Source: Clostridium sp. 1001275B_160808_H3
GTDB lineage: Bacteria > Bacillota > Clostridia > Clostridiales > Clostridiaceae
Length of the DNA stretch: 52,678 nt
Direction of reading: 5' to 3'
NCBI RefSeq assembly: GCF_015550425.1
Contig: NZ_JADNAT010000023.1
Coordinates: 1 to 52,678 of the forward strand
This document shows positions 4,600 through 48,395 of the stretch, piece by piece. Position 1 is the stretch's first letter. Every line of letters begins with the position of its first letter. A model generated the notes under the pieces. That model was given only the letters and a program-made list of their open reading frames with translations. It had not been told where the DNA came from and did not search any database. A program made the position numbers and the translations under genes.

Positions 4600-4772
4600 T
4601 AAAAAAAGCCTCAGACCTAAAGGGACGAAATTTCAATTCCGCGGTTCCACCCTTCTTGGCTTTAGCCCAACTTTCAATGTTAATACTCAAAAGCGCCCTT
4701 CAACTTAAATTAATAACGATTCACACCAACCATCGTCTCTCTAAAAGAAATATTAAGTTTACTCCTCTTTAT
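4600..4772 (-). promoter_or_regulatory. T-box riboswitch, glycine specific, controlling glyS
   Basis: The minus-strand leader contains the stem I marks GAGGAGTA, AGAGACGATGGTTGGTG and a specifier loop TGAAG-GGC-GCTTTTGAGT; the codon GGC at 4695-4697 reads glycine. The T-box sequence AAGGGTGGAACCGCGG is at about 4639-4654 and a terminator with GGCTTTTTTTA ends near 4600. Binding of uncharged tRNA-Gly would let transcription read through into glyS. The specifier was assigned by aligning it with the asparagine T-box at 45222 in the same window. Confidence 0.93.
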
Positions 4773-4798
4773 CATTGTACCTATTAAATTATATATTA

Positions 4799-5005: not shown

Positions 5006-5080
<75 letters not shown>

Positions 5081-5111
5081 ATATTCTTATAAATTAATCT
5101 TAAAATTAAAA

Positions 5112-5186
<75 letters not shown>

Positions 5187-5217
5187 ATATTCCTATAAAT
5201 TAATTTCAAAATTAAAA

Positions 5218-5292
<75 letters not shown>

Positions 5293-25112: not shown

Positions 25113-25323
25113 TATTATGAGCTACCTCCTTTTATTAATAATAATTAGTTGCAATATTATTATTTGACTTCTTAGAAATTTTATACACATATAACCAAAA
25201 TTTATAAAACGATATCATATTGCTAGTTTTCTTAAATAATATATAAAATATATAAAGTTATAATTAATTTATAATACAAGAAAAGACTCAATCTCAGAAA
25301 TTTATTTAATATAAAACTTATTT
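25113..25323. other. AT-rich region upstream of spoVT
   Basis: No gene seen. It must contain the spoVT promoter and borders the structured repeat that starts at 25324. Confidence 0.4.
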
Positions 25324-25552
25324 AATTTCAAATAATCTTCATTGCCCTTAAAAATTTAATCTCTTATTTTTATAAAGGGGCTCGCGTTTCGCGACCCCCT
25401 TTTAAACCATTGATTTTACTTACTTAAAAGCATTTTTAAACTTAAATATAAATTTTATTTATTACTTATATATACGCAAAGAGGGAAGTTCGAATTAGAA
25501 CTTCCCTCTTTATCAGCTAATATCAAAATTTATTTTAATACAATCCTTTTTT
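25324..25552 (-). repeat. Dispersed structured intergenic element, copy A (downstream of prsA)
   Basis: About 229 nt that align along their whole length with 42251-42480, roughly four in five bases identical by eye. On the minus strand the order is P1 (25521-25540, TATTAAA/TTTGATA), P2 (25478-25511, perfect 14-bp stem with loop TAATTC), an invariant 29-nt stretch (25400-25428), P3 (25377-25399, GGGGGTCGCG/CGCGAGCCCC) and a tail ending in TTGAAATT. P1 starts 27 nt after the prsA stop. P2 could serve as the prsA terminator, but conservation continues far beyond it. I do not recognise it as a named RNA family. Confidence 0.75.
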
Positions 25553-42210: not shown

Positions 42211-42250
42211 ATAAATATATAAATCTTAAAATTAACTATAAAATTTATTC

Positions 42251-42480
42251 AATTTCAAGTAGGCTTTATTGCCTTAAAGAAGTTAATCTCTTATTTTTTA
42301 TAAATGGTCTCACGAAACGTGAGACCCTTTTAAACCATTGATTTTACTTACTTAAAGGCATTTTTAAATTTAAATAGAAATTTTTATATATTATTTATAT
42401 ATATGCAAAAAGGGAAGCTCGAATTAGAACTTCCCTTTTTGTCGACTAATATCAAAATTTATTTTGATACAGACCCTTTT
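42251..42480 (-). repeat. Dispersed structured intergenic element, copy B (downstream of the Xaa-Pro peptidase gene)
   Basis: Full-length partner of 25324-25552. On the minus strand: P1 (42450-42469, TATCAAA/TTTGATA), P2 (42407-42440, 14-bp stem with one G.U), the invariant 29-nt stretch (42328-42356), P3 (42306-42326, GGTCTCACG/CGTGAGACC, perfect) and the tail. P3 is GGTCTCACG here and GGGGGTCGCG in copy A, with both arms changed together. P1 begins 15 nt after the stop of the gene at 42485. It also lies behind the plus-strand nupC, whose terminator may be P3 or P2 read on the other strand. Confidence 0.75.
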
Positions 42481-42484
42481 AATT

Positions 42485-45113: not shown

Positions 45114-45139
45114 CGTAATAAACATTATAAATTTTATTA

Positions 45140-45452
45140 CTATGACGAGAAGAGTAGCTATATGGAGGTAGTCTTAGCGAGTAAGGAATGGTGTGAGCCT
45201 TATACGAAGCCTTTAGTGAAGAACATCTCTGAGTTTCTAACCGAACAAGTGAAAATTATCATCTTTCATTTATATAAGATGTATATTAGGTTAATTAATT
45301 AGTTTCACTTAAGTAGACTTAGACGGATTCAAACCGTTATTATTTGAATGACATTACTTGTGTCAGTAGAGTGGCTATTTATACGATAGCAATCTGGGTG
45401 GTACCGCGAAATTATCCTTTCGTCCCTATTTTAGGGATGAAAGGTTTTTTAT
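45140..45452 (+). promoter_or_regulatory. T-box riboswitch, asparagine specific, controlling asnS
   Basis: Stem I carries GAGAAGAGTAG, GGAATGGTGTGAGCC and the specifier loop TGAAG-AAC-ATCTCTGAGT, whose codon AAC (45222-45224) reads asparagine. A long stem II/III region follows, then the T-box GGGTGGTACCGCG at about 45396-45408 and a terminator CTTTCGTCCCTA...TAGGGATGAAAG with a T-run at 45445-45450. Uncharged tRNA-Asn would favour readthrough into asnS; the cognate tRNA-Asn genes are at 5006-5292. Confidence 0.95.
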
Positions 45453-48285: not shown

Positions 48286-48372
48286 AAAAAAGACTAATGC
48301 TCTACGATTAAATCATAGAAGTCATTAGTCTTACTTGACGGTTTAGATTTCTCATGGGAGAACTTCATTCCC
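48286..48372 (-). promoter_or_regulatory. Fluoride (crcB-type) riboswitch with terminator
   Basis: Minus-strand RNA begins GGGAATGAAGTTCTCCC, continues TAAACCGTC and GACTAATGACTTCTATG (aptamer 48314-48372). GAAGT in the first hairpin loop can pair with ACTTC in the last segment, the fluoride pseudoknot. A terminator AAGACTAATG...CATTAGTCTT followed by TTTTTT (48286-48332) overlaps the 3' part of the aptamer, so fluoride binding would block termination and turn on the exporter. Confidence 0.9.
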
Positions 48373-48395
48373 AAAAATTATTCCTATTTTTTATT

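Follow-up and report, generated by a model that had tools for sequence, protein, structure and literature searches.

The window analysed here, a 52,678-nt stretch of DNA from Clostridium sp. 1001275B_160808_H3, contains two regions, A and B, that an initial annotation had paired as copies of an unassigned structured element set among unrelated genes. Both the likeness and the setting are borne out: blastn aligns A and B with 84.8% identity across 250 nt, and different genes flank each copy, a peptidylprolyl isomerase gene and spoVT in the case of A, and a NupC-type transporter gene and a gene for a Xaa-Pro peptidase-like protein in the case of B. No open reading frame of 70 aa or more in the ORF list of the window overlaps 25281–25551. 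Elsewhere in the window, two T-box leaders and a fluoride riboswitch (4618–4784, minus strand; 45133–45430, plus strand; 48309–48381, minus strand) reach Rfam gathering scores, and three tRNA genes with an equal Rfam score of 67.8 bits lie at 5009–5292 on the minus strand with an even tandem spacing of 106 bp.

The finer features of the two copies are present as first described: a 29-nt block (25400–25428) has the same letters in A and B, the P3 hairpin retains its pairing while both arms change (TCGCG/CGCGA in A versus TCACG/CGTGA in B), and the P1 difference at 25524/25537 reads C.A on the plus strand and G.U on the minus strand. A profile built from 24 copies matches A with an E value of 1.9e-72 and B with 5.1e-71, and the likeness of the two is far beyond chance. 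These are the sole elements that the profile detects in the window; four further hits above the inclusion threshold all fall inside A or B on the opposite strand, as palindromic hairpins do. While the homology held, the extent first assigned did not, since 25324–25552 misses both ends of the element in A. Consensus and profile matches give a repeat of ∼270 nt, with A at 25281–25551 and B at about 42211–42481, so that P1 falls within the terminal-repeat end. The parts of the two copies, which are identified below as a miniature element (MITE), are as follows.

25281–25551, minus strand: MITE copy A, left end at 25551 and right end at 25281 (full-length consensus and profile matches)
25532–25546, minus strand: left terminal repeat of A, minus-strand sequence GGATTGTATTAAAAT, which matches the left end of insertion sequences (ISs) of the IS1182 family
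25281–25301, plus strand: right terminal repeat of A, plus-strand sequence AAAAGACTCAATCTCAGAAAT (consensus end-to-end agreement 11/16)
25521–25540, no strand assigned: P1 hairpin of A, within the left end (no pairs changed on both sides; 7 G-U and 6 A-C)
25478–25511, no strand assigned: P2 hairpin of A, terminator-like, flanked by A and T tracts and common to the IS1182-family left end
25374–25402, no strand assigned: P3 hairpin of A, also dispersed as a palindrome at 54 sites in two genomes, and targeted by an IS3-like element
25400–25428, no strand assigned: 29-nt block identical in A and B
42211–42481, minus strand: MITE copy B, right end decayed beyond 42231 (consensus and profile matches)
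42461–42476, minus strand: left terminal repeat of B (sequence and consensus)
42450–42469, no strand assigned: P1 hairpin of B (sequence and consensus)
42407–42440, no strand assigned: P2 hairpin of B (sequence and consensus)
42301–42331, no strand assigned: P3 hairpin of B

Among species genomes, an exact 21-mer of the conserved block occurs in 14 stretches: four in C. tertium, eight in Clostridium MAG.206, and one each in C. mobile and a Pelagibacteraceae contig, where the match extends over only 26 and 21 nt, respectively. With A as the blastn query (E ≤ 0.01), C. tertium (G002) gives 52 matches and MAG.206 (G003) 44, and two weak matches come from C. mobile (G001); many of all these are fragments or palindrome-only hits. 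The blastn search for further copies in Clostridium, which the initial annotation had proposed, thus succeeds, with 11 near-full copies in each of G002 and G003, each spanning 200 or more of the 251 query bases. At the genus level, 9 of 68 genomes have matches at E ≤ 1e-6. At the family level, at least 9 of 206 do, a lower bound since three candidates were scored per genome and G011 and G044, matched in the genus search, are not among them. In the family search, near-whole-length matches occur only in G002 and G003; five genomes (G027, G030, G031, G043 and G062) match the left end, and two (G105 and G166) match a short inner piece. Blastn finds no match in plasmids or phages, nor does a search with one exact 22-mer find any in viral contigs.

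From 27 consensus matches, we aligned 24 copies, 2 from the window and 11 each from G002 and G003, with four ortholog pairs among them; the partial copies L042, L096 and L097 were omitted, and the ends are trimmed in several rows. The repeat is short and multi-copy, has no coding capacity, carries terminal inverted repeats, and is present or absent at orthologous sites. A and B are copies of a non-autonomous, gene-less, multi-copy transposon of ∼270 bp, a MITE, of C. tertium and its kin.

On the minus strand of the window, the consensus starts with GGGGCTGTATCAAAAT and ends with the complement of GGCGCAGTCTCAGAAA. These terminal inverted repeats are imperfect, with the left and right ends agreeing at 11 of 16 positions; 46 of 100,000 shuffles agree as well. 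The agreement is significant in this register, and is not when the repeats are compared in the wrong one. The first ∼80 nt of the consensus, which comprise the end, P1 and P2, are 82–88% identical to the left end of IS1182-family ISs, and left-end matches elsewhere in Clostridium genomes lead to elements of this family. The match is seen in all seven IS-like loci that were fetched, over 59–90 nt at 82–88% identity with P1 and P2 included. Five of the seven loci (L064–L067 and L069) also match an IS1182 transposase, which is intact in L064 and L069 and fragmentary or cut in the rest; L068 and L070 have no such match at E ≤ 1e-20. Two of the transposase proteins score 368 and 345 bits against NCBIfam NF033551 (cut-off 270); the same proteins contain DDE_Tnp_1_6 and DUF772 domains (Pfam). 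In L064, the single IS whose right end was read and hence the only one with which the MITE right end is compared, the right and left ends agree at 12 of 16 positions. A decayed IS1182 relic that shares this left end (76% identity over 101 nt) is retained in C. tertium (G002), and neither G002 nor G003 yielded an intact transposase of this IS1182 type. The initial annotation had named a match to an IS end as a finding that would speak against its proposal, and the left end does match the ends of IS1182-family ISs. By these alignments, the MITE has its ends in common with autonomous members of that family.

Six filled sites were compared with a relative that lacks the MITE: A, B and, from the remaining 22 aligned copies, four chosen for clean flanks (L023, L028, L029 and L031); in four other pairs the MITE is present in both genomes. 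At each of the six sites, and in all eight empty alleles, the unaligned gap contains a terminator-like hairpin with A/T tracts, and this hairpin is absent from the filled allele at all six. Only L023 and L028 are clean sites, and the other four carry caveats: at A and L031 the unaligned gap exceeds the hairpin by some 30–50 bp, and the empty-allele hairpins of B and L029 bear a weak resemblance to the left end of the MITE. Seven of the eight empty alleles, at five of the six sites, pass a strict stem criterion, the exception being the AT-rich hairpin at L031. The per-base background of that criterion is 6.3% (364 of the 5778 intergenic bases elsewhere in the window), to be set against tested segments of 60–178 nt. 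By eye, the flanks show no consistent target site duplication, which is not expected for an IS1272-like insertion. A target-duplicating element was considered on account of short AT words common to some flanks, but what the empty sites reveal is the loss of a hairpin. Loss of the stem-loop target, as in IS1272-type insertion, is what the alleles present at all six sites if the hairpin allele came first.

With genes called as simple ORFs of at least 70 aa, all 24 aligned copies are intergenic, each adjoins at least one gene 3′ end, and none lies between two gene starts. In 13 copies the left end faces the end of a gene and the right end the start of one, 8 lie between two gene ends, and 3 have the first arrangement reversed; of the 21 copies whose left end faces a gene end, 15 start within 25 nt of the stop codon. 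In tandem contexts, the left end points towards the gene end in 13 of 16 copies (p = 0.02), or 10 of 13 when orthologs are counted once (p = 0.09). Both P2 and P3 are visible as a GC-rich stem-loop followed by a T run. A consensus terminator scan reports no terminator for either copy, possibly owing to pairing of the T run with the A tract. The copies likely occupy the place of a terminator, with P2, near the left end, as the predicted replacement.

These observations suggest a MITE with IS1182-family ends that is moved in trans and takes the place of terminator hairpins, a reading to which we assign a probability of roughly 0.8. Here, an IS1182-type transposase would move the MITE, recognising, as reported for IS1272, a stem-loop that in many cases is an intrinsic terminator directly following a stop codon. 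The incoming DNA would replace the stem-loop without target duplication, and would bring terminator-like hairpins of its own, P2 near the left end and P3 mid-element. Transcription of the upstream gene would probably still be ended by P2 or P3, and for this reason the insertion may be tolerated. While the family, its IS1182-type ends, its presence and absence at orthologous sites, the hairpin confined to MITE-less alleles, and the position at gene 3′ ends are seen directly, we infer the movement in trans, the direction of the event and the termination by P2 or P3.

An ordinary MITE that enters AT-rich intergenic DNA would also be found near terminators if inserts survive at gene ends and terminators turn over. 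Every copy is at a gene end in any case, the stem criterion is passed by 6.3% of other intergenic bases, and AT words occur in the flanks. However, simple insertion would retain the hairpin, whereas at all six sites it lies in the gap and the filled allele lacks it, and the partner family is one for which hairpin replacement has been described (PMC4923244, PMC5678879). We consider an ordinary insertion unlikely. The hairpin alleles could instead be derived, with the MITE ancestral and a short hairpin left by its deletion or decay. The weak resemblance of the empty hairpin to the MITE left end at B (33 and 133 of 2000 shuffles as good) and at L029 (122 of 2000) is in keeping with this, and a relic of the element is possible at these two sites. 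The hairpins at A, L023, L028 and L031, however, are no closer to the MITE end than shuffles are, and at A and B the G002 and G003 hairpins look homologous by eye, while the MITE is seen in the window only. A derived origin of the hairpins is therefore very unlikely.

The insertion reading leaves the structural signal to be accounted for. Of the two readings in the initial annotation, the mobile RNA-like repeat is supported by the copies, the terminal repeats, presence and absence, and the IS1182 ends; the functional minus-strand RNA is neither needed nor, as a whole, supported. A dispersed sRNA or cis-regulatory RNA, the RNA being the selected product, would predict covariation, and covariation in P2 and P3 is real. 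Across P1–P3, 12 of 35 pairs are changed on both sides, versus 6.0 (sd 1.5) in shuffles, and the covariation score is 0.154 versus 0.121; none of 500 shuffles is as high on either measure, and slid versions score lower. The covarying pairs are 6 of 14 in P2 and 6 of 13 in P3, with none changed on both sides in P1, and paired cells make up 96.4% of the P2 main helix and 87.0% of P3. The minus strand folds better than its shuffles (z −6.6), and the orientation of the left end towards gene ends in tandem copies fits an RNA as well. However, the plus strand also folds (z −6.1), unconstrained RNAalifold retains only P2 (covariation term −0.32), and in an extended fold of A, the helices outside P2 and P3 have 0–3 pairs changed on both sides.

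The strand argument drawn from G.U versus A.C cells fares differently in each hairpin. Over the 24 copies, minus-strand G-U to A-C counts are 7:6 in P1 and 19:13 in P3 (p = 0.38), neither of which supports the argument, whereas P2 gives 26:2, and 13:2 (p = 0.007) without the column whose consensus is U-G. P2 alone looks as though it were selected as minus-strand RNA, and a terminator would predict this bias equally. Ortholog copies diverge by 17%, 16%, 14% and 6%, versus 3–8% in their flanks, that is, faster than the flanks in three of four pairs. Near A, promoter-like sites are no commoner than in shuffles (4 versus 5.6); the figures for B are 7 versus 3.1. The comparison with Rfam, also proposed in the initial annotation, gives 10 matches at gathering score in the window, none of them in A or B; at E ≤ 10, the best match to A has an E value of 0.07, far below the gathering score of that model, and none is credible.

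Matched arms also arise here from events at the DNA level. In L028, the left flank of P3 is now the complement of the right flank, which looks like template-switch repair of a palindrome; on the minus strand of L028:1472–1740, these complementary flanks lengthen the P3 hairpin by ∼19 pairs. The P3 loop reads AAA in 14 copies and TTT in 9, and both forms occur in the ortholog pair L019/L021, where the hairpin tips seem to flip. The P2 tip of these orthologs also differs as though inverted. Since such events yield matched arms too, covariation in this family is no proof of a functional RNA, and we regard that alternative as highly improbable. Finally, two look-alike terminators arising by chance have next to no probability, for while P2 and P3 resemble bidirectional terminators, A and B share 84.8% identity over 250 nt, and the many further copies in G002 and G003 refute the idea.

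P3 also occurs apart from the MITE. The sequence AAAGGGNNTCRCGWWWCGYGANNCCCTTT, allowing up to two mismatches, has 26 sites in G002 and 28 in G003 and none in eight other Clostridium genomes, and a reversed control gives none. At most 34 of the 54 sites lie outside larger MITE matches, an upper figure since 59 MITE matches were used with shorter ones omitted and L186, counted as outside, adjoins a MITE right end; some of the 34 lie within another dispersed repeat. This second repeat of C. tertium and MAG.206 (L161, L170, L177 and L169) has the same P3 hairpin at one edge. Judged by the many copies of the short palindrome, P3 is a REP-like dispersed palindrome.

An IS with ends TGGTCTTACCCCC and TGGTCTGACCCCT (L121–L150) is represented by 29 ends in G003 and 1 in G002. 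All 30 ends abut a P3-like arm directly after TTT or AAA, which is the loop, both inside and outside the MITE. A Geobacillus plasmid carries an element with 75% identity to the left end of this IS over 111 nt; the three ORFs of that element score 40, 142 and 121 bits against the IS3-family model NF033516, each below the whole-protein cut-off of 160, and have HTH_Tnp_1 and rve domains. From these partial copies, the loop-targeting IS would be assigned to the IS3 family. Insertion of IS3-family members into REP palindromes has been described (PMC1525189). P3 likewise is a dispersed palindrome with an IS in its loop, as are the REP palindromes targeted, in the loop or otherwise, by IS1397, ISKpn1 and ISPsy8, although the REP and P3 sequences appear unrelated by eye and the IS of P3 is known from incomplete copies (PMC1525189).

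Among the closest known counterparts is IS1272/TnSha1 of staphylococci. IS1272, an IS1182-family member, is reported to target hairpins, to delete the stem-loop sequence and to leave no duplication, with five targets being terminators confirmed by RNA-seq (PMC4923244), and replacement of target inverted repeats on insertion has been described as well (PMC5678879). The present element shares with IS1272/TnSha1 the IS1182-family ends, the hairpin targets, the loss of the hairpin and, as far as the flanks show by eye, the lack of a target duplication, as those reports describe them (PMC4923244, PMC5678879), but it is gene-less, ∼270 bp long, equipped with its own hairpins and resident in Clostridium, and its insertion is read from alleles alone. 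MITEs of ISMac2, also of the IS1182 family, are described in Methanosarcina acetivorans as similarly short, gene-less and multi-copy (160 bp in 14 copies and 169 bp in 7); they differ in host and in that one has a 4-bp duplication, and the likeness is one of description (PMC3852290). Likened in the same way, by description, are the pneumococcal BOX, RUP and SPRITE repeats, which are short and intergenic, include one with terminator-like hairpins, and insert into each other (PMC10969869). In the open-licence literature, we found no earlier account of this repeat, nor of any MITE that replaces stem-loops on insertion. The kind of element is known; the nesting is unusual.

A more ambitious picture, which we offer tentatively and hold to be somewhat short of probable, is of a terminator-swapping MITE that seeks out intrinsic terminators, deletes them and puts its own in their place, and so may gradually take over the terminators of many genes. 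P3 would in turn be the target of a loop-specific IS3-like element, giving a three-level nest of terminator, MITE and IS that spares the genes.

These findings explain one class of unassigned structured RNA signals, in which dispersed hairpins with true covariation have their origin in mobile DNA. They extend IS1272-type hairpin-replacing insertion to a gene-less element of Clostridium, with natural before-and-after alleles at six sites. P3 and the IS3-like inserts in its loop would form a Gram-positive counterpart to the relation between IS1397 and REP. If P2 or P3 does end transcription, the MITE would be selfish DNA that rewrites the terminators of its host in a nearly neutral manner.
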